In this document: in pieces, positions 34,783 through 53,011 of the stretch | Numbering within the stretch: position 1 is the stretch's first letter | Layout: each line of letters begins with the position of its first letter | Assembly (NCBI RefSeq): GCF_005298075.1 | Contig: NZ_SZZH01000001.1 | Span: 558,001 to 622,000, forward strand | From: Nakamurella flava | GTDB lineage: Bacteria; Actinomycetota; Actinomycetes; Mycobacteriales; Nakamurellaceae | Reading direction: 5' to 3' | DNA length: 64,000 bases | Notes under the pieces: generated by a model | What the model saw: only the letters and a program-made list of their open reading frames with translations | What the model was told of the DNA's origin: nothing | Database searches by the model: none | Made by a program: the position numbers and the translations under genes

Positions 34783-35940
34783 ATGGTCACGGTCCTGCTC
34801 GCTCCGGACAAGTTCAAGGGGTCGCTGACCGCCGCCCAGGTGGCGGACGCGGTGGCCGCCGGGCTGCGGGACGTCGACCCCACCGTCACCGTGATCAGCA
34901 GCCCGGTCGCCGACGGCGGCGACGGCACCCTCGCCGCCGCCGTCGCCGCCGGGTACCGGCCCGTGCCGGTCACCGTGCCCGGACCGACCGGGGAGCCGGT
35001 CGACTCCGGGTACGCGGTTGCCGACAACGGCACCGCGGTGGTCGAGCTGGCCGACGCCTGCGGGCTCGACCGGCTGCCCGGCCGCCGGCTCGACGCGCTC
35101 GGTTCCTCGTCGGCCGGGGTGGGTGCGGTCATCCGCGCCGCCCTGGACGCCGGGGTCCGGAACGTCGTGCTCGGGATCGGCGGCAGCGCCTCCACCGACG
35201 GCGGCGCCGGCCTGGTCACCGCGCTCGGCGCCCGGCTGCTCGACGCCGACGGCGCCGAGATCCCTAGCGGGGGCGCGGGTCTGGAGCGGCTGGATCGCAT
35301 CGACCTGTCCGGGCTGCACCCGGCGGTCGCCGACACCGCGTTCGTGGTGGCCTGCGACGTCGACAACCCGTTGCTCGGACCGAACGGGGCGGCCGCCGTC
35401 TACGGACCGCAGAAGGGCGCCGGCCCGGACGACGTGGCCCGGCTGGACGCCGCCCTGACCCATTGGTCGGGCGTGCTGTCCGACGCGCAGGGCCACGGGG
35501 CGGCCGGGCACCCGGCCGCCGCCACCCCGGGCGCCGGAGCCGCCGGCGGAGTCGGGTTCGCCGCCCTCGCCGTGCTCGGCGCCCACCTGCGGCCCGGCAT
35601 CGAGCTGGTCCTGGACCTCACCGGTTTCCACGACCGGCTGCCCGGCGCCGACCTCGTCGTCACCGGCGAAGGCGCGCTGGACACCCAGACCCTGTCCGGC
35701 AAGGCCCCGGCCGGGGTGGCCGCCGCCGCGGTCGCCGCCGGGGTGCCGGTCGTCGCGGTGGCCGGGGCGAACCTGCTCGACCTCGACACGCTGCGGGAGG
35801 CCGGCATCCAGGCCGCCTACACGCTGGTCGAGATCGAACCCGATGTCGCCACCTGCGTCCGCAACGCCGCCCCGCTGCTGCGCCAGGCCGCCCGCCGGCT
35901 GGCCGCCGAGCAGCTCACCGCCCCTGCCAGTTCTCCCTGA
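34783..35940 (+). CDS. glxK: Glycerate 2-kinase (GarK/GlxK family)
   Basis: A 385-residue kinase that phosphorylates D-glycerate to 2-phosphoglycerate and so feeds glyoxylate carbon into glycolysis. The family start [72 protein letters not shown]-type and [19 protein letters not shown] segments are all present. It begins 5 bases after gcl, which is the classical order of the allantoin glyoxylate module. Confidence 0.94.
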
Positions 35941-35966
35941 CCCCTTCCAGCCCAGAGGACCAGCCG

Positions 35967-37385
35967 ATGATCACCGCCGATCTCGTGTTCCGCGCCCAGC
36001 GCGCCCTTGTCAGCCCCGAGGACTCCGGCCGACCGGTCGAGCGGCCAGCCACCGTCGCCGTGCGCGACGGGGCGGTGGTCGCCATCTTCGACCTCGACGC
36101 CCCGGTGACGCTGGCCGCGGGCGGGCGCGAGATCGTGCTGGCCGACGACGAGGTGCTGCTGCCCGGTCTGGTCGACAGCCACGTGCACGTCAACGAGCCC
36201 GGCCGCACCGAATGGGAGGGCTTCGCCTCGGCCACCCGCGCGGCCGCGGCCGGCGGCGTGACCACCATCGTCGACATGCCGCTGAACAGCATCCCGCCGA
36301 CCGTGACCACGCAGGCGTTGGCGATCAAGCAGGCGGTGGCGGCCGAGAAGGCCGTCGTGGACGTCGGTTTCTGGGGCGGCGCCGTCCCCGAGCATCTGGA
36401 CGACCTGCCCGCGCTGCATGCGGCCGGTGTGTTCGGCTTCAAGTGCTTCCTGCTGCACTCCGGGGTCGACGAGTTCCCGGCGTTGGACCTGGCCGGCCTG
36501 GAGAAGGCCATGCGGATCGTCGCCGAGCTCGACGCGCTGCTGATCGTGCACGCCGAGGACGCCGACGTCATCGACCACGCACCGGCCGCCGACGGGCCGA
36601 CCTACGCCCGGTTCCTGGGCTCGCGACCCAGCGGGGCCGAGAACCTGGCCATCGCGCACGTTCTCGAGCTGGCCCGGCGGACCGGAGCCCGGGTCCACAT
36701 CCTGCATCTGTCCAGCGCCGACGCCATCCCGATGATCGCCGCGGCCCGCCGGGACGGGGTGCGGGCCACCGTCGAGACCTGCCCGCACTACCTGATCTTC
36801 CGGGCGGAGGAGATCGCCGACGGGGCCACCCAGTTCAAGTGCTGCCCGCCCATCCGCGGCACGGACAACCAGGATCTGCTGTGGCAGGCGCTGGCGGACG
36901 GCATCATCGACTGCGTGGTGTCCGATCACTCGCCCTGCACGCCCGAACTCAAGCGGTTCGACAGCGGTGACTTCGGCGCGGCCTGGGGCGGGATCGCCTC
37001 CCTGCAGCTCGGGCTGCCCGCGGTGTGGACCGCCGCTCGCGACCGCGGGCACGAACTGGCCGAGGTCGTCGAGTGGATGGCCCGGCGCCCCGCCGACCTC
37101 GTCGGTCTGCCGACCAAGGGGCGGCTGGCCGTCGGCGCTGCCGGTGATCTCGCCGTGTTCGCGCCGGACGAGACCTTCGTCGTCGACCCGGGGCGGCTCA
37201 ACCACCGCAACCCGGTCACCCCGTACGCCGGCCGCACGTTGTCCGGCGTGGTCCGCAGCACCTGGCTGGCCGGTCGACGGGTCGATACGGCCGCCGACGC
37301 ACCCGCCGGTGGGTCCCTGTTGCGGCGCAGCGGTTCCGAGGCCACCGCCGCCGGGGCCGATCTCGTGGGAGCCGGCCGGCCATGA
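35967..37385 (+). CDS. allB: Allantoinase
   Basis: A 472-residue zinc amidohydrolase of the dihydroorotase-like family that opens allantoin to allantoate. The metal ligands are visible: [11 protein letters not shown] (H72, H74), carboxylated K159 in [11 protein letters not shown], His in LLIVHAED and [11 protein letters not shown], and Asp in [26 protein letters not shown] and [12 protein letters not shown] are typical of allantoinases rather than hydantoinases. ATG 35967 follows glxK by 26 bases; the longer frame upstream overlaps glxK and is spurious. Overlaps the next gene by 4 bases. Confidence 0.95.
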
Positions 37386-38236
37386 GCGTTCTCGAGATGG
37401 TGCTGATCGTGCTGGCCGGCATCGCCGCCGGCACGATCAACACCGTCGTCGGGTCAGGGACCCTGGTCACCTTCCCGACCCTGGTCGCGTTCGGGTTCCC
37501 CCCGGTGACCGCGACCATGTCCAACGCGGTCGGCCTGGTCCCGGGCAGCCTGTCCGGCACCTGGGGGTACCGGCGGGAACTGCAGGGCCAGTGGCAGCGG
37601 CTGCGCTGGCAATTGCCCGGCTCGCTCATCGGCTCGATCACCGGTGCCTGGCTGCTGCTGCACCTGCCGGAACAGACGTTCAAACGGGTGGTGCCGGTCC
37701 TGCTGGTCCTCGCCCTGATCCTGGTGGTGGCGCAGCCCCGGATCCAGGCGTGGGCCCGGCGCCGGGCCGAGCGCCACGCCCCGGCGGCCGTCTCCAGTGC
37801 TGGTGGGGCGAGCGGACCCGACGTGGCCGGCGGCGGAGTGGTCACCGAGACCACCCCGGCCCGGACGGGTATCGGTCCCGTCCGGATGACGGCGCTGGTG
37901 CTGGCCACCTACGCGGCCGGCGTCTACGGCGGCTACTTCGCCGCGGCTCAGGGGATCATCCTCATCGGGATCATGGGCGTGCTGCTCACCAACTCGCTGC
38001 AGGAGATCAACGCGGCGAAGAACCTGCTGAGTCTGGTCGTCAACGTGGTGTCGGCGAGCTTCTACACGATCTTCGCCTTCGACCGGATCGACTGGGCCGC
38101 CGCCGGTCTCATCGCGGTCGGCACGCTCATCGGTGGGTTCGTCGGGGCCCACGTCGGCCGTCGGCTGTCACCGCGCTGGCTGCGGGGCATCATCGTCGTG
38201 CTCGGCCTGACCGCGTTGTGGTTCTTGATCAAATAG
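37382..38236 (+). CDS. TauE/SafE family membrane permease
   Basis: A 284-residue protein with 7-8 membrane helices in two related halves: [22 protein letters not shown] in part ([18 protein letters not shown]) and [18 protein letters not shown], the duplicated glycine-rich motif of the family. A polar loop of about 45 residues lies between the halves. TauE/SafE proteins export sulfite, sulfoacetate or other small anions. Located between allantoinase and ureidoglycine aminohydrolase and overlapping allB by 4 bases, it probably moves an intermediate or product of allantoin breakdown; the substrate is unknown. Confidence 0.85.
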
Positions 38237-38244
38237 TGGCAACC

Positions 38245-38325
38245 GCGTCCCGCGAGGGACGCTGCAGACTTCCGGGCGCCGACACGGCGCACGGTTCGCG
38301 AAGACGCGGGTCATCGAGGACCCGC
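38245..38325 (+). other. Two small hairpins before allE
   Basis: GCGTCCC (38245-38251) pairs with GGGACGC (38256-38262), and GCGGGTC (38306-38312) pairs with GACCCGC (38319-38325). Both stems are 7 bp. The second ends 3 bases before the ribosome site AGGAGAGG of allE. They may be a weak terminator plus a leader structure that tunes allE expression. Confidence 0.35.
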
Positions 38326-38340
38326 CAGGAGAGGACGGAC

Positions 38341-39186
38341 ATGGCCGAGCAGGCGAAACGGGCGAGCTACTACTCGGCGATGGGTGGCCTGCCGGGCCAG
38401 ACGGAGCTGACGACCAACCGCGCCGTCTTCACCGAGGCCTACGCGGTGCTGCCGCGCGGCACCATGCGCGACATCGTCACCAGCCTGCTGCCGTTCTGGG
38501 AGCAGACCCGGCTGTGGGTGATCGCCCGGCCGCTGTCCGGCTTCGCCGAGACGTTCTCGCAGTACATCGTCGAGGTGCAGCCCGGTGGCGGCAGCGACCG
38601 CCCGGACACCGATCCGGCGGCCGAGTCGGTGCTGTTCGTGGTGGACGGCTCGATCACGGTGACCCTGGACGGGCAGGTGCACGAGCTGCCGACCGGTGGG
38701 TACGCGTTCCTGCCGCCGGGGGCGAACTGGCAGCTGCGGGCCACCGGGGACACCGCGGCCAAGTTCCACTGGATCCGCAAGGCCTACCAGCGGGTCGAGG
38801 GTCTGGACGTGCCCGAGGCGTTCTTCACCTCGGACGAGCAGGTGCCGGCCATCGAGATGCCCGACACCGACGGGGTCTGGCGCACCCAGCGGTTCGCCGA
38901 CCCGACCGACGTGCGGCACGACATGCACGTCAACATCGTGACGTTCCAGCCGGGCGGAGCGATCACCTTCCCCGAGACCCACGTCATGGAGCACGGTCTG
39001 TATGTCCTGGAGGGCAAGGCCGTCTACCTGCTCAACCAGGACTGGGTCGAGGTGCAGGAGGGCGACTTCATGTGGCTGCGCGCGTTCTGCCCGCAGGCCT
39101 GCTACGCCGGCGGTCCCGGACCGTTCCGCTACCTGCTCTACAAGGACGTCAACCGGCACGCGGCGCTGAGCCGGCAGTTCGTCTGA
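38341..39186 (+). CDS. allE: (S)-ureidoglycine aminohydrolase
   Basis: A 281-residue bicupin enzyme releasing ammonia from ureidoglycine to give ureidoglycolate, late in allantoin breakdown. Each half has a cupin: the first around VLFVVDGSITVTLDGQVHEL and GGYAFLPPGANW, the second around ITFPETHVMEHGLYVLEGKA and EGDFMWLRAFCPQACYAGG, which contains the Mn-binding Glu/His/Gln set. The N-terminal ASYYSAMGGLPGQTELTTNR is characteristic. ATG 38341 has AGGAGAGG upstream. The enzyme making its substrate, allantoate amidohydrolase, is not in the window. Confidence 0.92.
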   Translation: MAEQAKRASYYSAMGGLPGQTELTTNRAVFTEAYAVLPRGTMRDIVTSLLPFWEQTRLWVIARPLSGFAETFSQYIVEVQPGGGSDRPDTDPAAESVLFVVDGSITVTLDGQVHELPTGGYAFLPPGANWQLRATGDTAAKFHWIRKAYQRVEGLDVPEAFFTSDEQVPAIEMPDTDGVWRTQRFADPTDVRHDMHVNIVTFQPGGAITFPETHVMEHGLYVLEGKAVYLLNQDWVEVQEGDFMWLRAFCPQACYAGGPGPFRYLLYKDVNRHAALSRQFV

Positions 39187-39200
39187 CGCCGGTCGGTATG

Positions 39201-39217
39201 CTTCCGCTATACGGAAG
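39201..39217 (+). promoter_or_regulatory. Palindromic operator upstream of iclR
   Basis: CTTCCGCTATACGGAAG has 6-bp arms and a 5-base centre, the same as the sites at 23798-23814 and 29791-29806. Its centre lies 30 bases before the iclR start, consistent with autoregulation. Only one copy is present here. Confidence 0.6.
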
Positions 39218-39238
39218 TCGGATTCCTCAGGAGACGTC

Positions 39239-40051
39239 ATGGCGCAGCCCGACAGTGTGGTCGATCTGGGTGAGGTGACGGCTGCGCCGGCCGCCGCAAA
39301 GGCCCGCTCGGGCGGCGTCCAGTCCATCGAGCGGGCCTTCGCCATCCTCGAGATCCTGGTCGCCAACGGCGGTTCCATGGGCCTGTCGGCGCTGGCCGCG
39401 GCGGCCGACCTGCCGTTGCCGACCATCCACCGGCTGGCCCGCACCCTGGTCGACCTGGGCTACCTGCGGCAGGAGCCGTCCCGCCAGTACACCCTCGGCC
39501 CGCGGGTGCTGCTGCTGGCCGAGAGTTCCTCGACCATGCTGAACTCGCTCGCCCAGCCGCACCTGCTGCGGCTGGTCGACGAGATCGGAGAGACGGCCAA
39601 CCTGGCGTCGCTGGACGGCGACCAGATCGTCTACATCGCCCAGGTGCCGTCCCGGCATTCGATGCGGATGTTCACCGAGGTGGGCCGGCGGGTGCTGCCG
39701 CACTGCACCGCGGTCGGCAAGGCCATCATGGCCCACCTGCCGCCCGACGAGGTGCGAGACATCCTGCGGCGCACTGGGATGCCCGAGCACACCGAGCACA
39801 CCATCACCGACCCGGCCACCTTCCTCGAACAGCTCGACTGGGCCGCCGAGCACGGGTACGCCAACGACGACGGCGAGCAGGAACTCGGGGTCCGCTGCGT
39901 CGCCGTCGCCGTGCCCGACGTCAAGGCCCGCCTGGCGCTGTCGATCTCGGGGCCGGCCGGTCGGATGACCCCGGAGACGATCGACCGGGCGGTGCCGCTG
40001 CTCACCGCGGCCGGGCAGGCGCTGGCCGCGGAGCTCAACCGCTCGTCCTGA
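39239..40051 (+). CDS. IclR family regulator of purine/allantoin catabolism
   Basis: A 270-residue regulator. After a 28-residue tail come the winged HTH (about 29-90: VQSIERAFAILEILV, LSALAAAADLPLPTIHRLAR, YTLGPRVL) and the IclR effector domain (about 100-268: IGETANLASLDGDQIVYIAQV, LPHCTAVGKAIMAHLP, GYANDDGEQELGVRCVAVAV). It closes the allantoin gene run, and its leader carries the palindrome found at both purine promoters. It is thus the probable repressor, comparable to AllR, with glyoxylate, allantoate or ureidoglycolate as possible inducers (inference). Confidence 0.9.
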   Translation: MAQPDSVVDLGEVTAAPAAAKARSGGVQSIERAFAILEILVANGGSMGLSALAAAADLPLPTIHRLARTLVDLGYLRQEPSRQYTLGPRVLLLAESSSTMLNSLAQPHLLRLVDEIGETANLASLDGDQIVYIAQVPSRHSMRMFTEVGRRVLPHCTAVGKAIMAHLPPDEVRDILRRTGMPEHTEHTITDPATFLEQLDWAAEHGYANDDGEQELGVRCVAVAVPDVKARLALSISGPAGRMTPETIDRAVPLLTAAGQALAAELNRSS

Positions 40052-40132: not shown

Positions 40133-40528
40133 TCAGGACTGCGGCGGCGTCTGGACCCACTCCACCAGCTGCCAGACCAGACCGTTCGGGTCCTCGAACT
40201 GGCAGTAGCGCTCACCCCACGGTTCGGTCTCCGGTTCGGTGACGACCCGCGCGCCGGCCGCCCGGATCCGCTCGAACTCGGCGTCCAGACCCTCGACGAC
40301 GAAGGCCAGCAGCAGGCCCTGCCCGGCGGAACCGGCAATCTCGACCGGCCGGAACGACGGCAGTCCCGTCCGCAGGAACGTCACGTTGACCCCGGCGGTG
40401 GGGTGACCGAGGGAGACGAAACCGTCGGCGGCCATCTGCTCGACGAAACCGAAGTGTCGACAAGCGAACTCGGCGGAGGCGGTCACGTCCGGGACGTTGA
40501 GGGACACGGCGGTCTGACTGATGTGCAC
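40133..40528 (-). CDS. VOC superfamily protein (glyoxalase/bleomycin resistance-like)
   Basis: A 131-residue single VOC domain: HISQTAVSLNVPDVTASAEF at the start (in part SLNVPDVTASAEFACRHFGF), a central GLLLAFVVEGLDAEFERI, and EPWGERYCQFEDPNGLVWQLV at the end. GTG 40528 has AAGGAG upstream; a longer frame continues but is unsupported. The gene is divergent from a TetR regulator with a palindrome between them, so it is probably repressed by that regulator. The ligand is unknown. Confidence 0.82.
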   Translation of the reverse strand: MHISQTAVSLNVPDVTASAEFACRHFGFVEQMAADGFVSLGHPTAGVNVTFLRTGLPSFRPVEIAGSAGQGLLLAFVVEGLDAEFERIRAAGARVVTEPETEPWGERYCQFEDPNGLVWQLVEWVQTPPQS

Positions 40529-40549
40529 GGGCTGCTCCTTGGCTAGAAC

Positions 40550-40562
40550 TACGTACAACGTA
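40550..40562. promoter_or_regulatory. Candidate TetR operator
   Basis: TACGTACAACGTA is a 13-base palindrome with 5-bp arms (TACGT/ACGTA) between the divergent VOC and TetR genes, 22 bases from the VOC start and 33 from the TetR start used here. The place and symmetry fit an operator controlling both genes. Confidence 0.5.
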
Positions 40563-41312: not shown

Positions 41313-42323
41313 TCAGGGCCGCTCGGACCCGCGCAACTGCAGGGTCGTGGGCAGTACCTGCACCCGGGCCGGGCCGTCGTCCCCCTGCAGGCGGTCGAGG
41401 CCGGCCCTGACCGCGGCCCGGCCCATCGCCTCCACGTCCTGGGCGACCACCGACAGCGGGGGATCGAAGAGTGGAGCCGCCTCGAAGTCGTCGAAACCGA
41501 TGATGGGTAGCCGGGTTCCGACGGTCCGGAAGGCCAGGAGGGCTCCGACGGCGGCCCGGTTGTTGGCGGCGAACAGTGCATCCGCCCGCCCCTCCCGCAA
41601 CAGCCGGGCGACCAGGTCGACGGCCTGCCCGCTGGAGTGACTCGTCTCGAAAACCAGAGTCGGGTCGACCACGACACCGTGCTGCGCGTGGGCGAGCAGG
41701 TAGCCCTCGTACCGTTCGTCCATGGTGTGAAGGGCGCGGTCGTCCCCGACGAAGGCGATCCGACGCGCGCCACCGGCCAGCAGGGCGGCGACGGCATCGC
41801 GTGTGCCACCACGGTTGTCGGCCAGGACGGTGTCCGCCCCGGCCAGATCGCCGGGCCGGTCCACGAACACCACCGGCGGCAGCGGCGGTGACCAGTGCGA
41901 CCACGAGCGGCCGACGGTCCGCGGGGCCACGTCGATGATCATGTCCACCTGTTGCTGCAGCAGCCGCTCGACGACCCAGTCGTGCCGGGCGCCGTCCTCC
42001 TCTGAACTGGCGATGGTCAACAGCAGCCCCGTCTCGGCGGCGACCGACTCCACCGACCGGGCCAGCGCCGCCCAGTACGGGTTGGCCAGGTCGCCGATGA
42101 CCAGTCCGATGACCCCGCTGGTCTGCCCGGGTCGGATGCTGGCCGCCGCCAGGTTGCGGCGGTAGCCGAGTTCCTCGATCGCCGAACGGATGCGCTCGGC
42201 CATCTCCGGGTTGATGTTGGTCATCCCGTTGACGTACCGCGACACCGTCCGCAGCCCGACCTGGGCGCGCGCGGCCACGTCGTTCATCGTGGGACGGCGG
42301 TCCTGCCGCGGGCCGATCACCAT
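41313..42323 (-). CDS. LacI family transcriptional repressor
   Basis: A 336-residue regulator with an N-terminal LacI HTH and hinge (PTMNDVAARAQVGLRTVSRY, NINPEMAERIRSAIEELGYR) and a periplasmic-binding-protein-like sugar domain (VIGLVIGDLANPYWAALARS, VVFVDRPG, RIAFVGDDRALHTMDERYEG, IIGFDDFEAAPLFDPPLSVV). It lies 16 bases after the kinase-isomerase fusion gene on the same strand. A palindrome with a central CG pair overlaps the -10 of that operon, so autoregulation by the pathway sugar is expected. Confidence 0.9.
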   Translation of the reverse strand: MVIGPRQDRRPTMNDVAARAQVGLRTVSRYVNGMTNINPEMAERIRSAIEELGYRRNLAAASIRPGQTSGVIGLVIGDLANPYWAALARSVESVAAETGLLLTIASSEEDGARHDWVVERLLQQQVDMIIDVAPRTVGRSWSHWSPPLPPVVFVDRPGDLAGADTVLADNRGGTRDAVAALLAGGARRIAFVGDDRALHTMDERYEGYLLAHAQHGVVVDPTLVFETSHSSGQAVDLVARLLREGRADALFAANNRAAVGALLAFRTVGTRLPIIGFDDFEAAPLFDPPLSVVAQDVEAMGRAAVRAGLDRLQGDDGPARVQVLPTTLQLRGSERP

Positions 42324-42339: not shown

Positions 42340-44367
42340 TCACGCGGCCGGGGGGCGGACGAGCAGGGCGGTGCCGGCGCCCGTCAGCCGCCGGGAGCGG
42401 CAGCAGGCCGGGAGCAGCACCGTCGAGCCCGGAGCGAGCGGGGCCGGCGCACCTCCCGCCGCGAGGCTCAGATCACCGTCGACCCCGATGAGGATGCCGA
42501 ATCCGGCCGGGATCTCGCTCGCACCGGTGACGGTGAGTCGCTCCAGGCGGAAGTACTCGTCGGCCGGCGTCGGCAGACCGTCGCCGGGGCTGCCGGCCCG
42601 GACCACCAGCCCGTCGATGTCCGCGGCCGAGCGGGCCCGGCGCTCCACCGCCTGCAGCGCGAGCGGGAACCCCAGACCGAGGTGACCGTGGGCCGCGCCG
42701 TCGATGTCGAAGCCCCGCCACTCCAACAGGATCGACAGGTCCTCCGGCTCCTGCACCTCGGTCAGCAGGACCCCCTGGCCGATCGCGTGCAGCACGCCGG
42801 GCGGCACGTACACCCGGTCGCCCGGCTCGACGGTGATCCGGTGCATGTCGACGAGCAGTTCGTCGACCCGCTGCTCGTCGACCAGCGCCAGCAGTTCGGC
42901 GGGCTCGACATCGCGGGTCAGGCCGAGCCAGACCTCGCCGGGGCTGAGGATGTACCAGGCTTCGGCCTTGCCGTGCGCCGAACCCAGATGGCGGGCGGCG
43001 AAGTCGCGGTGCGGGTGGGCGTGCACCGGCAGTCGTTGCCCGGCGTCCAGTAGCTTGACCAGGATCTTCGGATCCACTCCGAACCGTTCGAGATGCTCAC
43101 GCCCCAACCAGGTCTGCGCGTCAGCCGCGATGGTGTCGGCCAGTAGGGCCCCGCCGGGCAGGCGGGTCTGGCCGGTCGGTGCGGTGCCCCGGACATCGAC
43201 GGTCGAAGCCACCCAGTCCTCGGGGGTGTTCGGTTCCGCCGACGGCAGGCCACGGAAACCGGAGATCCGGTCACCGCCGGCGTAGAAGCGGGCCGCGGGC
43301 TGGTTGGCCGGTACCAGCACCGCGTCCACGGGGCCGGCCGGGCGCAGCAGGTCGGCCAGACCCGGGGCCAGGGCGGCCACCGCTTCCCGTGTGGGAGCCG
43401 TGCCGGACAACGTGCAGGCCGCCGTCGCCGTGGCGAGATCGGCGGCCGCCTGGGGCCCGAAACCCGCGGCCACCGCGTACAGCAGGCCGGCCGACGACGC
43501 GTCGCCGGCGCCGTTGGTGGTGGTGATGGCCACCGGCAGCGGCGGTCGGCCGAGGTCGGCGCCGGCCCAGCGCAGCGCACTGTCGGCGAAGGCGGGCCCG
43601 GCGGCCCGCAGCCGTCGTTCGTCGGCGGCCAGCAGCCGAACCCCCCGGTCGCCGTCGGAGACCGCGGCCACGGCGGCCCCCGCGTCCAGCAGCCAGCGGG
43701 CCAGAGCCCCCGCGCGGTCGTCGCCGTCGCCGGCGATGGCCTCGCCGAGCGCGGATTGCAGGTCGTCGACGCTGGGGCTGACGACGTCGACCAGTGGCAG
43801 CACCCGGCGCAGGATCCGGTCCCAGTCCAGTCGCCCCATCGGTCCGGTGCCGTCGACCACGGCCAGGTCGAGGGAGGTGGTGGCCCCGGCGGCGCGGGCC
43901 CGCTGCAGGAGCGTGACCAGCGGCGCGGCGTCGTCGGCCAGCAGGGCGGGCAGCAGCGACGGGTAGCCCACGTGCAGCAGGCCGGCGCCGACCGGGACGG
44001 TGATGCCGTCGAAGCGGGCGTTGGCCCCGACGTGATGCCAGAACGTCCGGTCGAGCCCGGGTGGCTCCAGAACCAGGCTGTACGAGGTGGTCTCGCCGGG
44101 CAGCACCTGCGGGCGACCGGCCAGACCGGCGGTCGCGTCGATCGCTCGCCCGATCACCTCGCCGAGCTCGTCGTCCCCGACGGCGGCATGGATGGCGACC
44201 GGGGCGCCGAGGCCGGCCAGTGCGCGGGCCGTGTTCGCCACGCACCCGCCCAGACCGAAGTGCAGCGGGCCGACCTCGAACAACCGTCCCGGTTCCAGAC
44301 GGGCCGATGTCGTGAGGGCCGGGGTGACGTCCGCGCACAAGTGACCGGCGACGGTGATGGGTAGCAC
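42340..44367 (-). CDS. Fusion of PfkB-type sugar kinase and class I mannose-6-phosphate isomerase
   Basis: A 675-residue two-domain protein. Residues 1-345 form a PfkB/ribokinase kinase: GHLCADVTPAL, LGGCVANTARALAGLG near the start and TTTNGAGDASSAGLLYAVAAG with the catalytic Asp of GAGD (286-289). Residues 355-675 form a type I phosphomannose isomerase: GGALLADTIAAD, KLLDAGQRLPVHAHPHRDFA (H449, H451), GKAEAWYILSPGEVW, then GDRVYVPPGVLHAIGQGVLL and VQEPEDLSILLEW, which supply the zinc ligands. GTG 44367 has GGAGGA upstream. The frame runs through the join without stop or frameshift. A sugar would be phosphorylated and isomerised by one polypeptide; order and substrate are inference. Confidence 0.82.
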   Translation of the reverse strand: MLPITVAGHLCADVTPALTTSARLEPGRLFEVGPLHFGLGGCVANTARALAGLGAPVAIHAAVGDDELGEVIGRAIDATAGLAGRPQVLPGETTSYSLVLEPPGLDRTFWHHVGANARFDGITVPVGAGLLHVGYPSLLPALLADDAAPLVTLLQRARAAGATTSLDLAVVDGTGPMGRLDWDRILRRVLPLVDVVSPSVDDLQSALGEAIAGDGDDRAGALARWLLDAGAAVAAVSDGDRGVRLLAADERRLRAAGPAFADSALRWAGADLGRPPLPVAITTTNGAGDASSAGLLYAVAAGFGPQAAADLATATAACTLSGTAPTREAVAALAPGLADLLRPAGPVDAVLVPANQPAARFYAGGDRISGFRGLPSAEPNTPEDWVASTVDVRGTAPTGQTRLPGGALLADTIAADAQTWLGREHLERFGVDPKILVKLLDAGQRLPVHAHPHRDFAARHLGSAHGKAEAWYILSPGEVWLGLTRDVEPAELLALVDEQRVDELLVDMHRITVEPGDRVYVPPGVLHAIGQGVLLTEVQEPEDLSILLEWRGFDIDGAAHGHLGLGFPLALQAVERRARSAADIDGLVVRAGSPGDGLPTPADEYFRLERLTVTGASEIPAGFGILIGVDGDLSLAAGGAPAPLAPGSTVLLPACCRSRRLTGAGTALLVRPPAA

Positions 44368-44423
44368 GCGGGGTCCTCCTCGACCTGTTCGCCGTGCGAT
44401 CCGGACGGCCCCCGGCACGGCCT

Positions 44424-44457
44424 GGACAACGTTATCCCGACGTGTTTACAGTGGCAA
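44424..44457 (-). promoter_or_regulatory. LacI-type operator overlapping a leftward promoter
   Basis: GGACAACGTTATCC (44424-44437) is a 14-bp palindrome, broken at one pair, with the central CG typical of LacI-family operators. On the minus strand a -35 TTGCCA (44452-44457) and a -10 TAACGT (44429-44434) are 17 bases apart, so the operator covers the -10. The site is also placed to influence the divergent aldolase operon. Confidence 0.7.
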
Positions 44458-44542: not shown

Positions 44543-45385
44543 ATGTCGCTGTTCCGACTCCGACGCCTGTTCAATCCGCGTTCCGGCCGCGCTCTCGATG
44601 TCGCGGTCGACCACGGATTCTTCGGCGAGCCGTCCTTCCTGACGGGCATCGAGGACATGCCCGCCGTGGTGCGCACGCTGGTCCAGGCCAACCCGGACGC
44701 CGTGCAGCTGACCATGGGGCAGGCCCACCACCTGCAGTCGGTCCCCGGCAAGGACAAGCCCGCCCTGGTGATGCGCACCGACGTGGCCAATGTCTACGGC
44801 AACCCGCTCGACGAGCACCTGTTCAGTCACCACGTGCCGACGGCGATCGAGAACGCCGTCCGCCTCGATGCGGTCGCGGTGTGCGCCAACCTGATGCAAC
44901 TGCCGGGACGCCCGGACATCCGGGAGGCGAACATCCGCTCGCTGATGGCCCTGCGCGAGCAGGCCACCCGCTACGGCATGCCGCTGATGATCGAACCGCT
45001 GGTCATGCAGGACAACGCGAAGGCCGGCGGCTACATGGTCGACGGCGACACCGCCAGGATCACCACCCTGGTGCGCCAGGCGGTCGAGCTGGGCGCGGAC
45101 CTCATCAAGGCCGATCCGACCGACGACATCACCGACTACCCCAAGGTCATCCGCGTCGCCGGGGGAGTGCCGGTGCTGGTCCGCGGCGGCGGACGCGTCG
45201 ACGACGAGACCCTGCTGACCCGCACCGTGGCCGTGCTCGACGCCGGGGCGAGCGGAATCGTCTACGGCCGCAACATCATCCAGCACGACGACCCGGCCGG
45301 CATCACCGCCGCGCTGATGGCCGTCCTGCACGACGGGGTCGGCGTCCAGGACGCGCTGACCCGGCTGCGGGAGCGGACCGTATGA
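44543..45385 (+). CDS. Class I aldolase, DhnA/FbaB/LacD type
   Basis: A 280-residue TIM-barrel aldolase. DVAVDHGFFGEPSFLTGIED at the N-terminus and ELGADLIKADPTDD with the probable Schiff-base lysine K189 mark the DeoC/FbaB/LacD family; GVPVLVRGGGRVDDETL and GASGIVYGRNIIQHDDP form the phosphate-binding end. It probably cleaves a phosphorylated keto-sugar into a triose phosphate and an aldehyde. It is divergent from the kinase-isomerase fusion and overlaps the next oxidoreductase by 4 bases, so these genes likely act in one sugar pathway. Confidence 0.82.
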   Translation: MSLFRLRRLFNPRSGRALDVAVDHGFFGEPSFLTGIEDMPAVVRTLVQANPDAVQLTMGQAHHLQSVPGKDKPALVMRTDVANVYGNPLDEHLFSHHVPTAIENAVRLDAVAVCANLMQLPGRPDIREANIRSLMALREQATRYGMPLMIEPLVMQDNAKAGGYMVDGDTARITTLVRQAVELGADLIKADPTDDITDYPKVIRVAGGVPVLVRGGGRVDDETLLTRTVAVLDAGASGIVYGRNIIQHDDPAGITAALMAVLHDGVGVQDALTRLRERTV

Positions 45386-46557
45386 GCCCCGCCCCCGCTG
45401 TGCCGACGGTCAACGTCGCCATCATCGGTGGCGGTCTGATGGGCCGGGAGATCGCCGCGGCCATCCAGCGGTGGCCCGCCCTCATCGACCATCCCGTCCG
45501 GCCGCGGCTGACCGCGGTGTGCGACATCAATCCGGCCGCGCTCGACTGGTTCGACCAGATCGACACCGTCACCACGAAGGTCACCGACCACCGCGACCTG
45601 CTCGACGACGACTCCATCGACGTGGTCTACGTCGCCGTCCGGCACGATCTGCACGAGCGGATCTACACCGACGTCATCGCCGCCGGCAAGAGTCTGCTGG
45701 CCGAGAAGCCCTTCGGCATCGACGGTTCCGCCGCACGATCGATCATGGCGGCCATCGCGGCCCACCCCGAGAGCTTCGTCCGGGTGTCCAGCGAGATGCC
45801 GTTCTTCCCCGGTGCCCAGTGGGCGATCGACTACGTGCGGTCGGGCGCGCTCGGCCGGATCGTCCAGGCCCGCAACGCCTTCCTGCACTCCAGCGACACC
45901 GACGTCACCAAGCCGGTGAACTGGAAACGGCAGAACCGGTTCTGCGGGGAGGCCGGCGTGATGAACGACCTCGGTCTGCACGCCTGGCACGTCCCGCTGC
46001 GCCTGGGCTGGGCGCCGGAGACGGTCTACGCACAACTGCAGAACATCGTCACCGAGCGTCCGGGGCCGGACGGGACGAACGTGCCGTGCGACACCTGGGA
46101 CAACGCCACCCTGCACTGCTGGAGCCGGCACGAGGGCGAGCGGTTCCCGCTCACCACGGCGATGAAGCGCATCGACCCCGGCCAGAAGAACACCTGGGAG
46201 TTCGAGGCCATCGGCCTGGACGGCGGGGTGCGGTTCTCGACCAGCAACCCCAAGCGGGTGGAGGTCTTCGCGAAGGTCGACGTCCCCGGCGTGGGCCGCG
46301 AACAGGCCTGGCAGCAGCTGGATGTCGGCAGCCAGTCGGTGTGGCCGACGGTCACCGGCGGCATCTTCGAGTCCGGGTTCTCCGACTCGATCCTGCAGAT
46401 GTGGGCGGCCTACCTGGCCGAGCGGCACGGGGCCCTCGGCGATCGCTTCGGCACCGTGCGGCCGGAGGAGGCCGCGCACACCCACGCCGTCTTCGCCGCC
46501 GCCAGCGCCTCGGCCGCCGATGGTCGGGCGCACGACGTCGCGCCCCTGACCCGGTAG
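45382..46557 (+). CDS. Gfo/Idh/MocA family NAD(P)-dependent oxidoreductase
   Basis: A 391-residue enzyme. The N-terminal Rossmann fold has VAIIGGGLMGREIAAAI (Gly motif at 13-18) and LLAEKPFGIDGSAARSIM, the conserved EKP of the family. The C-terminal alpha/beta domain contains NDLGLHAWHVPLRLGW with the expected catalytic Asp/His. Such enzymes oxidise sugars, inositols or amino sugars. ATG 45382 overlaps the aldolase stop (ATGA). Together with the divergent kinase-isomerase it points to catabolism of an uncommon sugar or polyol. Confidence 0.88.
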   Translation: MSPAPAVPTVNVAIIGGGLMGREIAAAIQRWPALIDHPVRPRLTAVCDINPAALDWFDQIDTVTTKVTDHRDLLDDDSIDVVYVAVRHDLHERIYTDVIAAGKSLLAEKPFGIDGSAARSIMAAIAAHPESFVRVSSEMPFFPGAQWAIDYVRSGALGRIVQARNAFLHSSDTDVTKPVNWKRQNRFCGEAGVMNDLGLHAWHVPLRLGWAPETVYAQLQNIVTERPGPDGTNVPCDTWDNATLHCWSRHEGERFPLTTAMKRIDPGQKNTWEFEAIGLDGGVRFSTSNPKRVEVFAKVDVPGVGREQAWQQLDVGSQSVWPTVTGGIFESGFSDSILQMWAAYLAERHGALGDRFGTVRPEEAAHTHAVFAAASASAADGRAHDVAPLTR

Positions 46558-46656: not shown

Positions 46657-47577
46657 TCAGGTTCCGGTGTCGCCGGCGAGCATCCATGCGCTCAGGGTGC
46701 GCCGACTCGAGAACTCCCGGGGCCGCCCGGTGAGCGGGTCGGTGAACGAGATCGACCGGGCCAGCAGCTGGAGCGGGTCCGAGAAATCGAGGCGGTCCGT
46801 GTCGCGCAGCTCGGGCCAGAAGTTGTCGCCGACGATCGGGATGCCCAGCGCGTTGAGATGCACCCGGAGCTGATGCGTGCGGCCGGTGCGGGGGTGCAGC
46901 CCGTAGCGGGCGAGATCGCCCCTGCGGTCGAGTATCTCGACGGTCGTCTCGGCGTTCGGCTCGCCCGGGACCTCCTCGGCGCGTGGCGTGCCCCGGTGCT
47001 TGACGATCCGGCTACGGACCGTCGTCGGCAGCGGCAGCTCCGCCCGGTACGGGGCGACGGCCTCGTAGAACTTGGTGACCTGACGATGGGCGAACAGTTG
47101 CTGGTAGGCGCCCCGTTCCGACGGTCGCAACGAGAACACCAGCACCCCGGCGGTCAACCGGTCCAAGCGGTGAATCGGCGACAGGTCCGGCAGGTCGAGG
47201 TCGCGGCGCAGCCTCACCAGCGCCGACTCGGTGACGTGCATCCCGCGCGGCATGGTGGACAGAAAATGCGGTTTGTCGACGACCAGCAGACTCTCGTCGC
47301 GGTGCAGGATGTCGATCTCGAACGGCACCCGCACCTCCGGGGCCGGGTCGCGGTACAGGAAGACGAAGGCGTCGGCCAGATACGGCGTCCGTTCGGTGAT
47401 CACGGTGCCATCGCCCGCGAGAACCTCTCCGCCGGCGAGTTTCTCGCCCAGCCGCCGGTGATCGTCGGGGAAGCGGTCGCGCAGGTACTCGGCCGTGGTG
47501 GCCCAGCTCCCGTCGATCGGCAGCCGGATCCGGCTCGGGTTCAGACCGTCACGGACCGGCAGGGGAGAACGGGGCAC
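46657..47577 (-). CDS. RluA family pseudouridine synthase
   Basis: A 306-residue RNA-modifying enzyme. The catalytic motif is SPIHRLDRLTAGVLVFS with D139. ILHRDESLLVVDKPHFLSTMP precedes it, and GLHPRTGRTHQLRVHLNALG with IPIVGDNFWP forms the conserved C-terminal part. The N-terminal 60 residues differ from the S4-like domain of RluD. Targets could be rRNA or tRNA uridines; the exact site is not predictable. It is monocistronic and leftward. Confidence 0.88.
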   Translation of the reverse strand: MPRSPLPVRDGLNPSRIRLPIDGSWATTAEYLRDRFPDDHRRLGEKLAGGEVLAGDGTVITERTPYLADAFVFLYRDPAPEVRVPFEIDILHRDESLLVVDKPHFLSTMPRGMHVTESALVRLRRDLDLPDLSPIHRLDRLTAGVLVFSLRPSERGAYQQLFAHRQVTKFYEAVAPYRAELPLPTTVRSRIVKHRGTPRAEEVPGEPNAETTVEILDRRGDLARYGLHPRTGRTHQLRVHLNALGIPIVGDNFWPELRDTDRLDFSDPLQLLARSISFTDPLTGRPREFSSRRTLSAWMLAGDTGT

Positions 47578-50218: not shown

Positions 50219-53011
50219 GTGACCGCACTGACCGCCAGCAAGGGCACCCGCCGCACTCCGGCGAAGGGCCGCAGTACCGCGAAGACCGCCACGACGCCTT
50301 CGGCCGCCACTCCCGAACGGCCGACCCTGCTGCTGGTGGACGGCCACTCGGTGGCCTATCGGGCCTTCTTCGCCCTGCCGGTCGAGAACTTCGCGACCAA
50401 GACCGGCCAGTCGACGAACGCCGTCTACGGCTTCACCTCCATGCTCATCAACCTGCTCCGCGACGAACGGCCCACCCACGTCGCCGTCGCCTTCGACCTG
50501 TCCCGGCAGACCTGGCGGCGGGAGGAGTACGTCGAGTACAAGGCCAACCGGACGGCGTCGCCGGAAGGGTTCCGCGGGCAGATCGAGCTGATCAAGGAAG
50601 TGCTCGCCGCGCTGCGGATCCCGCAGCTGACCGCCGAGAACTACGAGGCCGACGACGTCATCGCCACCCTGACCACCCGGGCCGTCGCCCAGGACCTGCG
50701 GGTGCTGATCTGCACCGGTGACCGGGACGCGCTGCAGCTCGTCACCGACGACGTCACCGTGCTGTACCCGCGCCGCGGGGTGTCCGACCTCACCCGGTTC
50801 ACCCCGGAGGAGGTCGACGCCAAGTACGGGCTGACCCCGCTGCAGTACCCCGACTACGCCGCCCTCCGCGGCGACCCGTCCGACAACCTGCCCGGCATCC
50901 CCGGGGTCGGCGAGAAGACGGCGGCCAAGTGGATCCGCGAATTCGGCAGCCTGACCGCCCTGGTCGACCGGGTGGAGGAGGTCCGGGGCAAGGTGGGCGA
51001 CGCCCTGCGCGAAGCGCTGCCGCACGTGCTGACCAACCGGCGGCTGACCGAGCTGGTCCGCGAGGTGCCGGTGGACGCCGACCCCGCCACCGATTTCCAG
51101 GCCCTGCCGTACGACCGGGAGGCCGTCCACCGCATCTTCGACGACCTCGAGTTCCGGGTCCTGCGCGAGCGCCTGCTGGAGACCTTCGTGCAGGCCGACG
51201 AGACCAGCACCGAGGGCTTCGAGGTCGACGGCGCCCGGCTGGCCCCGGGCACCGTGCGGGCCTGGTTGCAGGCCCACGCGACCGGCCGGGTCGGCCTGGT
51301 CGTCCGCGGCACCTGGGCGCCGGGGGGCGGCGACGTGCACAGCCTCGCGCTGGCCGCGGCCGACGGGACGGCGGCGGTCGTCGACGTGGTGGCCGCCAGC
51401 GAGGACGACGACGCCGCGATCGCCGCCTGGCTGGCCGACCCGACCCCGACCAAGGTCGGCCACGACCTCAAGCAGTCGGTCAACGCCCTCACCGCGCGGG
51501 GCTGGCCGGTCGACGGCATCGCCAGTGACACCGCCCTGGCCGCGTATCTCGCCCTGCCCGGGCAGCGGACCTTCGACCTGGGCGATCTGGTGCAGCGCTA
51601 CCTGCACCGCACGTTGGATCCGGAGCAGTCCACTCCGGACGGGCAGCTCAGCCTGCTCGGCGAGCTGGAGGCCGAGGGCGGCGAGCAGTCCGAGCACGCG
51701 GCGACGGACGCCCGCGACATGATCAAGGCGCGCGCCGTCATCGACCTCGGCGAGGCCCTCGAGCAGCACCTGGAATCCCTCGGCCAGAAGGCGCTGCTGG
51801 CCGACATGGAACTGCCGGTGATGACGGTGCTCGGCCGGATGGAGCGCGACGGCGTGGCCGTCGACATCGACTACCTGGAGGGCCTCCAGTCGACGTTCGC
51901 CGGGGAGGCCGCGGCCGCGGCCAAGGCCGCCTACGCCGAGATCGGCAAAGAGGTCAACCTCGGGTCGCCCAAGCAGCTGCAGGTGGTGCTGTTCGACGAG
52001 CTGGGCATGCCCAAGACCAAGCGCACAAAGACCGGTTACACCACCGATGCCGACGCGCTGACCAGCCTGCACGAGCAGACCGGGCACCCGTTCCTGACGC
52101 ACCTGCTCCGACACCGCGACGTGACCCGCCTCAAGACCACGGTCGAGGGGCTGCTCAAGTCCGCCGGCGACGACGGCCGCATCCACACCACCTACCAGCA
52201 GACCGTCGCGGCCACCGGACGGCTGTCCAGCACCGAACCGAACCTGCAGAACATCCCCATCCGGACGGACGAGGGCCGCCTCATCCGGCGCGCGTTCGTG
52301 CCCGGGCCGCAGGCCGCCCAGCTGATGACGGCCGACTACTCGCAGATCGAGATGCGGATCATGGCCACCCTCTCCGAGGACGAGGGGCTCATCGAGGCCT
52401 TCCGTTCCGGGGAGGACCTGCACACCTTCGTCGCCGCCCGGGCCTTCGGAATCGGCACCGACGAGGTGCACCCCGAGATGCGACGCCGCATCAAGGCCAT
52501 GTCCTACGGACTGGCGTACGGGCTGTCGGCGTTCGGGCTGTCCGGTCAGTTGAAGATCTCGGTCGACGAGGCCAAGGACCAGATGGAGCAGTACTTCTCG
52601 CGGTTCGGGGGCGTCCGCGACTACCTGCGCCATGTCGTCGACCGGGCTCGGATGGACGGCTACACCGAGACGGTCTTCGGTCGGCGGCGATACGTCCCCG
52701 ACCTGACCAGCGACAACCGACAGAAGCGGGAGATGGCCGAGCGGATCGCCCTCAACGCCCCGATCCAGGGCAGCGCCGCCGACATCATCAAGGTGGCCAT
52801 GCTCCGGGTGCAGGCGCGCCTGGAGGCCGAGGGACTGCGCTCGAAGATGCTGCTGCAGGTGCACGACGAGCTCGTCTGCGAGGTCGTCGACGGCGAACAG
52901 GACACCATCCGGCGGGTGCTGGAGGAGGAGATGTCCGCGGCGTACCCGCTGGCGGTGCCGCTGGAGGTCTCCGTCGGGGCCGGTCCGAACTGGGACGCCG
53001 CCGCGCACTGA
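50219..53011 (+). CDS. polA: DNA polymerase I
   Basis: A 930-residue repair and Okazaki-processing polymerase. Residues 35-320 are the 5'-3' exonuclease (LLVDGHSVAYRAFFALP, ENYEADDVIATL, TGDRDALQLV, GVGEKTAAKWI). The middle domain (about 325-530) lacks the DxE metal motif of a working 3'-5' exonuclease, as is usual in actinobacteria. The polymerase domain has motif A MTADYSQIEMRIMA, motif B RRRIKAMSYGLAYG and motif C LLQVHDELVCEV. The first 30 residues are a basic Ala/Thr-rich tail. The GTG start appears to be leaderless. Confidence 0.97.
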   Translation: MTALTASKGTRRTPAKGRSTAKTATTPSAATPERPTLLLVDGHSVAYRAFFALPVENFATKTGQSTNAVYGFTSMLINLLRDERPTHVAVAFDLSRQTWRREEYVEYKANRTASPEGFRGQIELIKEVLAALRIPQLTAENYEADDVIATLTTRAVAQDLRVLICTGDRDALQLVTDDVTVLYPRRGVSDLTRFTPEEVDAKYGLTPLQYPDYAALRGDPSDNLPGIPGVGEKTAAKWIREFGSLTALVDRVEEVRGKVGDALREALPHVLTNRRLTELVREVPVDADPATDFQALPYDREAVHRIFDDLEFRVLRERLLETFVQADETSTEGFEVDGARLAPGTVRAWLQAHATGRVGLVVRGTWAPGGGDVHSLALAAADGTAAVVDVVAASEDDDAAIAAWLADPTPTKVGHDLKQSVNALTARGWPVDGIASDTALAAYLALPGQRTFDLGDLVQRYLHRTLDPEQSTPDGQLSLLGELEAEGGEQSEHAATDARDMIKARAVIDLGEALEQHLESLGQKALLADMELPVMTVLGRMERDGVAVDIDYLEGLQSTFAGEAAAAAKAAYAEIGKEVNLGSPKQLQVVLFDELGMPKTKRTKTGYTTDADALTSLHEQTGHPFLTHLLRHRDVTRLKTTVEGLLKSAGDDGRIHTTYQQTVAATGRLSSTEPNLQNIPIRTDEGRLIRRAFVPGPQAAQLMTADYSQIEMRIMATLSEDEGLIEAFRSGEDLHTFVAARAFGIGTDEVHPEMRRRIKAMSYGLAYGLSAFGLSGQLKISVDEAKDQMEQYFSRFGGVRDYLRHVVDRARMDGYTETVFGRRRYVPDLTSDNRQKREMAERIALNAPIQGSAADIIKVAMLRVQARLEAEGLRSKMLLQVHDELVCEVVDGEQDTIRRVLEEEMSAAYPLAVPLEVSVGAGPNWDAAAH

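Follow-up and report, generated by a model that had tools for sequence, protein, structure and literature searches.

A sugar kinase fused to a phosphomannose isomerase-like protein in Nakamurella flava, and the predicted LacI regulon around it

Within a 64,000-nucleotide stretch of the genome of Nakamurella flava (contig NZ_SZZH01000001.1, positions 558,001 to 622,000; hereafter, the window), one gene is predicted to encode a PfkB-family sugar kinase and a cupin isomerase resembling phosphomannose isomerase (PMI) in a single polypeptide. The gene for a LacI-family regulator follows it on the reverse strand, while beyond a predicted operator a class I aldolase and a Gfo/Idh/MocA dehydrogenase are encoded in the forward direction (Table 1). 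A first-pass annotation of the window had proposed that the fused protein hands over a sugar phosphate directly and that these genes outline an undescribed sugar or polyol route. In what follows, the window's own genome (4.84 Mb) is designated G000, and G and L numbers denote the genomes and loci with which it was compared.

The frame of the fused gene is unbroken from its GTG start to its stop, with no internal stop codon or frameshift. At the local base composition the chance of a 676-codon open stretch is about 6e-6, but an open frame alone is poor proof in GC-rich DNA, where 15 kb contain 47 frames of at least 120 amino acids, many of them spurious. The frame is considered more than chance because of homology, as full-length fused relatives with 52-60% identity occur in G073 (L131), Leifsonia sp. 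TF02-11 (L032), and Ruania rhizosphaerae (L033). Their presence in three other genomes rules out a chance frame or a frame artefact, and it bears out the first-pass annotation, which had read one frame of 675 residues as a PfkB kinase joined to an isomerase and had pointed to a search for the same domain pair elsewhere. No ribosome-binding motif was seen by eye upstream of the isomerase part; in the unfused relatives L031, L040, and L043, such a motif (e.g., GAAAGGA) lies ahead of the separate isomerase start codon. The AlphaFold2 model, built on an alignment of 43 sequences, has a mean predicted local distance difference test score (pLDDT) of 94.4 and a predicted template modeling score (pTM) of 0.71. 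Residues 3-336 of the model align with ribokinase (Z 33.7) and residues 343-675 with the PMI fold of 1zx5 (Z 33.3). By sequence, then, a single gene encodes both a sugar kinase and a sugar isomerase, and neither half has lost its active site.

Table 1. Coordinates of the predicted module in the window
Feature	Position	Strand	Details
LacI-family regulator	41313..42323	-	336 aa; 16 nt downstream of the fused gene
Fused PfkB kinase/PMI-like cupin isomerase	42340..44367	-	675 aa; GTG start at 44367; Pfam, NCBIfam, and PDB matches plus model
PMI-like cupin isomerase domain, residues 347-675	42343..43329	-	Zinc-site H449, H451, E469, H527, plus K467
Linker, approximately residues 339-346	43330..43353	-	Lower pLDDT (77) in block 341-350
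Kinase domain, residues 1-338	43354..44367	-	Catalytic D289 in NGAGD
LacI-type operator (predicted), TGGACAACGTTATCCC	44423..44438		Divergent promoter; 12-base core once in the 4.84 Mb genome
DhnA/DeoC-type class I (Schiff-base) aldolase	44543..45385	+	280 aa; Lys189; PF01791
Gfo/Idh/MocA dehydrogenase	45382..46557	+	391 aa; start overlaps aldolase stop

The kinase half matches the Pfam PfkB family PF00294 over residues 8-322 with 81.6 bits (cut-off 25.8). Its catalytic residues G40, G41, N45, and D289 (GAGD motif) are invariant in all 33 aligned kinases, just as residues H449, H451, K467, E469, and H527 of the other half are conserved in all 80 aligned isomerases, namely those at least 45% identical; the earlier statement that both halves keep their catalytic motifs is therefore upheld. 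The fold and the GAGD site are shared with the PfkB/ribokinase-family kinases (ribokinase, IolC, fructokinase, KDG kinase, YihV). The window kinase differs from these in being fused to an isomerase and in falling below the cut-off of every NCBIfam model listed.

The isomerase half shares its fold, zinc ligands, and Lys/Glu pair with the type I mannose-6-phosphate isomerases (ManA; 1qwr, 1zx5, and Salmonella ManA). It matches the PDB chains 1qwr (3.6e-14) and 1zx5 (4.3e-12) and aligns with PMI structures at Z 30-33 (33.3 for 1zx5 and 31.1 for 1qwr). In contrast to canonical ManA, it scores only 43.5 bits with the NCBIfam manA model (TIGR00218; cut-off 116.2). The match to PF21621 is also weak, at 25.1 bits (cut-off 27), and the canonical PMI family PF20511 does not match the fused protein at E <= 1e-3, its matches in G000 being to other genes only. 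PF01238 has no match in the whole of G000 and is hence uninformative. A segment of the form SDN-LR-GLTPK is present, with small changes (variants SDNTLRAGLTPKH and SDNVLRGGLTPKR), in all six canonical ManA proteins compared (two from G000 and one each from G073, G985, G991, and G718) but in none of the 12 aligned members of the isomerase family, most of which have SILLEW...GHLGLGF in its place. The Arg and Lys of this segment presumably bind the phosphate in canonical ManA, although the open-access literature searched yielded no structural paper on phosphate binding, and the absence of the segment from the isomerase half fits an unphosphorylated substrate. A second difference lies in the zinc site, where H449 occupies the position of the canonical Gln ligand. 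LPVH replaces the LS(L/I)Q of ManA in 11 of the 12 family members, the exception being L108, which keeps the Gln (LRVQ); 1zx5 also has His at this position. According to the available text on a Bacillus enzyme with Lys at the same position, that enzyme had no mannose-6-phosphate activity, and the activity was restored by Gln (PMC4718643). The change from Gln to His may likewise matter.

Canonical ManA genes recognized by PF20511 were found elsewhere in 16 of the 17 genomes searched, G616 having none, and G000 has two. This rules out that the housekeeping ManA has moved into the fusion, and the two canonical genes in G000 would leave the PMI-like copy free for another sugar. The term phosphomannose isomerase, applied to the second half by the first-pass annotation, is thus too strong, as the zinc site is kept, the canonical segment is missing, and two canonical ManA genes lie elsewhere in the genome. 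The same observations bear on the simplest account of the fusion, in which a bifunctional mannokinase and mannose-6-phosphate isomerase would lead mannose-6-phosphate through fructose-6-phosphate into glycolysis, and the aldolase and the Gfo/Idh/MocA enzyme would serve a neighboring, partly separate need. It is in keeping with the retained zinc site and Lys/Glu pair, and canonical ManA, being so widespread, could substitute where the isomerase is missing. The lost segment and the two canonical genes already in the genome nevertheless argue against it, and it leaves the best conserved genes of the module, those for the aldolase and the Gfo/Idh/MocA enzyme, unexplained. Overall, this account seems rather unlikely.

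The aldolase matches PF01791 with 105.4 bits (cut-off 23.8). Lys189 and the GGG and GRN (G242-R243-N244) segments are invariant in all 13 sequences compared and align with MJ0400 and LsrF; these segments, we assume, hold the phosphate at the dihydroxyacetone phosphate (DHAP) end. The Schiff-base Lys and the GRN phosphate loop are common to the DhnA-type class I aldolases (MJ0400, LsrF, and the archaeal fructose-bisphosphate aldolases), and their retention would make a ketose-1-phosphate the natural substrate. The window aldolase differs from these enzymes in possessing Gln at the position of the MJ0400 Tyr, with the invariant Glu151 near by, and in falling below the NCBIfam cut-offs listed. 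Among the 18 PDB sequences that match the Gfo/Idh/MocA enzyme at E <= 1e-5, its nearest solved relatives are the sugar dehydrogenases 5ya8 (scyllo-inositol/L-glucose dehydrogenase) and 6a3f, and the NAD-dependent glycosidases of families GH109 and GH188, which have the Gfo fold, are not named. An inositol route was considered and rejected, the likeness to IolC (52 of 300 bits) and IolG (47 of 355) being weak.

Loci that contain the aldolase together with a PfkB kinase were termed type B. There are 41 of these, or 38 distinct loci after the copies L145, L168, and L178 are dropped; L175 and L176 come from one genome, and the short stretches L001-L030 were excluded from the counts of locus types. 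Neighbors were called with a home-made gene finder and tblastn anchors, and an isomerase is counted as not detected where nothing within the stretch covered matched the window isomerase as query. All 38 distinct loci, which were themselves chosen for aldolase and kinase, contain the dehydrogenase gene, gfo, and 33 have a LacI relative somewhere in the locus, in support of the association with a divergent aldolase, a Gfo/Idh/MocA enzyme, and a LacI regulator that had been noted in the window. Identity to the window proteins is 68-85% for the aldolase, 61-85% for Gfo, 39-57% for the kinase, and 49-63% for the adjacent isomerase, and the LacI relatives that adjoin the kinase share 47-62%. The divergent order is kept in most type-B relatives, with the genes in the same direction in a few (e.g., L111, L112, L113, L144, and L172). 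In 19 of the 38 distinct loci the isomerase gene comes immediately after the kinase, and 25 have it somewhere in the locus.

Among these 19 adjacent pairs, four are fused by frame continuity (the window, G073, Leifsonia sp. TF02-11, and Ruania rhizosphaerae) and 15 consist of two genes, often a few bases apart or overlapping. Of 200 genomes searched within the order, 43 have a match to the fused protein at E <= 1e-20, which is near full-length in G000, G073, and G051; in G051, which belongs to the window's own genus, kinase and isomerase are separate genes. Of 87 confirmed loci from a scan of named genomes, 80 were retained, and 67 of these 80 match the isomerase half only. The fusion is an occasional form of a gene pair that is usually adjacent. 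Repeated, independent fusion is not shown. Although the four fused rows do not form a clade on a quick kinase tree (4 changes), this region of the tree is poorly resolved, several rows have long branches, and the fusion may have a single origin. There is likewise no support for the direct hand-over of a sugar phosphate suggested by the first-pass annotation, since 15 of the 19 pairs are separate genes, 13 of the 38 distinct loci have no detected isomerase, and a pTM of 0.71 fixes no interdomain channel. Moreover, if the isomerase acts on the free sugar, the intermediate passed on would be a ketose rather than a phosphate.

Although small, the module is shared widely among actinobacteria. Searches detected Gfo in 7 of 396 genomes from the phylum (E <= 1e-40) and the aldolase in 25 of 394 from the class (E <= 1e-50). 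At E <= 1e-60, Gfo occurs in 44 of 85 genomes of the G805 family, in 2 of 22 of the G718 family, and in 28 of 349 from the family to which the Leifsonia genome belongs. The module recurs in the Microbacteriaceae, in the window's own genus, and in uncultured lineages.

Outside the type-B loci, kinases and aldolases of other families take their place. An FGGY kinase replaces PfkB beside the aldolase-Gfo pair in 27 loci, 16 of which have a detected isomerase, and in G919 a PfkB-type locus coexists with one of the FGGY type. To our knowledge, no FGGY kinase acts on aldohexoses, and the replacement is a further point against a mannokinase. Among loci fetched by the isomerase, the 48 that were sorted out by an ADP-glucokinase-like kinase all have a class II aldolase. 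Across these loci, a set of isomerase, kinase, and aldolase thus recurs even though the kinases and aldolases are unrelated. The ADP-glucokinase-like loci, which lie among L041-L107 (Microbacterium, Arthrobacter, Agromyces, and others) and mostly have sugar ATP-binding cassette (ABC) transporter-like and DeoR-like genes beside the kinase-isomerase pair, apparently represent another sugar operon without assignment. Four streamlined genomes of 1.2-1.5 Mb (L121, L122, L123, and L135) have the aldolase-Gfo pair and an FGGY kinase, with an isomerase in three of the four, and some of these loci are near araB-like and ribokinase-like genes.

A different use of the isomerase is suggested by L157-L159, from the window's genus, in which it is found with genes for LacI, an FGGY kinase, a LacC-like kinase, a LacD-like aldolase, and a ribose-type ABC transporter; in L158 and L159 the LacI-PMI-FGGY-LacD-ABC set adjoins the aldolase-Gfo pair. 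With its LacC/FruK-like kinases (families named on the L133 homologues), this arrangement would suit a private upper glycolysis, in which the isomerase receives a hexose-6-phosphate from another source, the PfkB half serves as a LacC-like ketose-6-phosphate 1-kinase, and the aldolase cleaves a 1,6-bisphosphate. Consistent with this scheme, the family of the aldolase is represented in archaea by fructose-bisphosphate aldolases. However, most type-B loci have at most one sugar kinase besides PfkB (FGGY in 4 of 41 and a PRK-like kinase in 9 of 41), so the first phosphorylation would usually be missing. The isomerase also lacks the canonical ManA segment, and the PfkB half scores weakly with the 1-phosphofructokinase and FruK models (28 and 27 bits; cut-offs 216 and 292). 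Such a role is judged improbable.

A palindrome near GAGACAACGTTGTCTA is present in the aldolase/kinase promoter of 33 of the 38 distinct type-B loci, where an operator was called at a match of at least 13 of 16 positions to a consensus derived from these same promoters. Elsewhere in the same loci there are 21 further operator-like sites in 618,101 bp, and none was found in 798,379 bp of 48 type-D loci. A reversed control pattern of the core occurs twice in the window's genome. From these promoters, the module is predicted to be one LacI regulon, with the LacI protein probably binding the palindrome. In related loci the regulon would extend to sugar uptake and glycoside hydrolases. Operator-like sites precede genes that resemble ABC sugar-binding proteins, as named by eye, in L032, L033, L112, L038, L175, L176, and L179. 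They lie 23-121 bp upstream of glycoside hydrolase family 2 (GH2) genes in L127, L175, and L176, with a weaker site (12/16) in L038, and upstream of GH38 genes in L112 (371 bp) and L113 (173 bp), where the nearer sites (L112 9089 and L113 8946) precede the aldolase and not GH38. In L033 a run of ABC-like, GH2, and GH92 genes is headed by two such sites. Some operator-like sites are those of a sister system with LacI genes of its own (e.g., L160, L161, L164, and L167). No sugar transporter was recognized by eye next to the window locus.

The neighboring genes also bear on the substrate. The queries for mannosidases, the FAD/Fe-S (iron-sulfur) dehydrogenase, and the mannitol-type dehydrogenase were drawn from type-B loci or from L038, and the contrasts that follow are biased for this reason. 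Of the 41 type-B loci, 8 (8 of the 38 distinct ones) contain mannosidase-family genes (GH38, GH92, and GH2), versus 1 of 109 other loci, and a recount at E <= 1e-5, in which each locus was searched solely with queries taken from another, again gave 8 of 41 versus 1 of 109. The sole mannosidase-bearing locus that is not of type B, L038, has a LacI relative of 55% identity. In L063 and L083 the kinase, isomerase, GH38, and lacI genes form one run, with GH38 between isomerase and LacI; the GH38 of L063 was confirmed, and its NCBIfam match is a mannosylglycerate hydrolase, far below cut-off. Mannosidases in the same loci, partly behind the same operator, would be expected of a mannokinase as well. 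A gene of the FAD/Fe-S 2-hydroxyacid dehydrogenase type occurs in 5 of 41 type-B loci and in none of the 109 others at E <= 1e-30, with one extra weak match each in L040 and L088 at E <= 1e-5, and in L091 it has an operator-like site in front of it. Its presence in some loci fits a hydroxyacid made from an aldehyde.

Five distinct type-B loci encode a further dehydrogenase, gfo2, which on L043 resembles IolG (188 of 540 bits). In L031, L037, L040, L043, and L169 there are two Gfo-family genes beyond gfo, one of them inositol-dehydrogenase-like (tested on L043). These loci are of Microbacteriaceae type apart from one Nanopelagicales metagenome-assembled genome, and L037, L040, and L169 have no operator at 13/16.

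Polyols provide another potential source of the kinase's ketose. It would then be formed mainly by polyol dehydrogenases, with the isomerase as an accessory inlet. In 8 of the 19 loci where no isomerase adjoins the kinase, and in 1 of the 19 where one does, there is indeed a gene of the mannitol dehydrogenase family, usually accompanied by a PRK-like kinase and a short-chain dehydrogenase/reductase. However, 7 of these 9 loci group together as a single clade on the kinase tree and hence are not independent cases, and one of the nine supplied the query. In addition, the core operator pattern was not seen upstream of the polyol genes, and no gene of this family was noticed near the window locus. 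A polyol route is the least probable of the explanations considered here.

Based on the current evidence, the module substrate is most likely a mannose-like sugar. The reading favored here, tentatively and at slightly less than an even chance, is a LacI-repressed route of the rhamnose type for a mannose-configured sugar, in which the fused protein supplies two steps. The PMI-like half would convert the free aldose to the ketose, and the PfkB half would phosphorylate this ketose, most likely at O1. From the ketose-1-phosphate, the divergent class I aldolase would then release DHAP and a short hydroxyaldehyde. NAD-linked oxidation, either of the resulting aldehyde or, equally plausibly, of the sugar at the entry to the route, would fall to the Gfo/Idh/MocA enzyme.

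Several observations weigh against this route. The isomerase, undetected in 13 of the 38 distinct loci, is not essential to the core of kinase, aldolase, and Gfo. One relative of it, L145 in G919, reaches the PF20511 cut-off (27.1 bits; cut-off 22), and the mannokinase account has simplicity in its favor. The kinase fold is undiscriminating, with ribokinases at the top and IolC, fructokinase, and the ketose 1-kinase YihV following within Z 4. For the aldolase, the altered Tyr position is presumably that of the catalytic tyrosine of the fructose-bisphosphate aldolase/DhnA family, and because of this change its chemistry may not be a plain retro-aldol reaction. We know of no characterized Gfo/Idh/MocA enzyme that oxidizes a lone hydroxyaldehyde. 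Five of the 38 promoters have no site at 13/16, and because the operator core was not found a second time in the window's genome, the search turned up no transporter for the regulon. Lastly, mannosidases occur in a minority of type-B loci, and the operator-linked genes include other families, namely GH42 (L032) and a pectate-lyase-like gene (L033).

A more specific form of the proposed route would be a D-series mirror of L-rhamnose breakdown, serving D-rhamnose (6-deoxy-D-mannose) from bacterial polysaccharides after its release by mannosidase-fold enzymes. The PMI-like isomerase would produce 6-deoxy-D-fructose and PfkB its 1-phosphate, which the DhnA aldolase would split into DHAP and D-lactaldehyde. 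Gfo would oxidize the latter to D-lactate, and the FAD/Fe-S dehydrogenase of some loci would convert D-lactate to pyruvate. The MJ0400 family of DhnA aldolases handles a 6-deoxy-ketohexose-1-phosphate, and a sugar without a 6-hydroxyl would explain both the missing canonical PMI segment and the need for a private aldolase. Still, this specific assignment is a speculative one and is considered unlikely to be correct in full.

Two known systems resemble the proposed route. In the second sulfoglycolytic Embden-Meyerhof-Parnas (sulfo-EMP2) pathway, as described in the available part of PMC9594981, the isomerase SqvD acts on the free sugar, SqiK is a 1-kinase, and SqiA is an aldolase that forms DHAP and a C3 aldehyde, with isozymes swapped between clusters. 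The isomerase-kinase-aldolase logic and the swapping of isozymes are the same as in the window module. The families differ, however, being PF02952, PF00365, and PF01116 in sulfo-EMP2 and a PMI-like cupin, PF00294, PF01791, and the Gfo and LacI families in the window. For this reason sulfoquinovose breakdown was ruled out, within what the available portions of PMC9594981, PMC10755693, and PMC8873060 describe. Arthrobacter sulfoquinovose clusters contain TauE permeases, according to the accessible text of PMC8873060. The gene at 37382-38236 of the window is TSUP/TauE-like by eye, but it lies among allantoin-type genes. L-Rhamnose catabolism with the bifunctional RhaEW likewise combines an isomerase, a kinase, an aldolase, and an NAD-dehydrogenase with a fusion of two consecutive steps, and the regulon of some actinomycetes includes lactate dehydrogenases, as far as the available part of PMC3870299 describes it. 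RhaEW fuses aldolase and dehydrogenase whereas the window fuses kinase and isomerase, and the aldolase and dehydrogenase families also differ. No description of a kinase-PMI fusion or of such a module was found in the open-access literature searched, which comprised titles and the beginnings of abstracts, with subscription papers outside its scope. In agreement with the first-pass annotation, an isomerase-kinase-aldolase sugar route built from other enzyme families, with an occasional kinase-PMI fusion, is apparently undescribed; the preference for a sugar over a polyol is one that we infer.

Further genes were noted around the module. At 34783-40051, glycerate-kinase-, allantoinase-, TSUP-, and cupin (ureidoglycine-hydrolase)-like genes and an IclR gene resemble a cluster for allantoin use; IclR was checked with Pfam and the other genes were named by eye. 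At 40133-40550 on the reverse strand, the tail of a 559-amino-acid frame resembles by eye a small protein of the VOC/glyoxalase type and lies beside a TetR gene. Beyond the module are genes for a pseudouridine synthase (46657-47577, by Pfam) and DNA polymerase I (50219-53011, by eye).

In conclusion, five loosely annotated genes become one testable predicted regulon. Non-orthologous replacement is clearly exemplified by the way in which a single isomerase recurs while the kinase and aldolase beside it are exchanged repeatedly. In addition, the PMI-like proteins of Microbacterium, Arthrobacter, and their relatives may carry the annotation of mannose-6-phosphate isomerase even though those compared, from L052 and L072, lack the canonical ManA segment.

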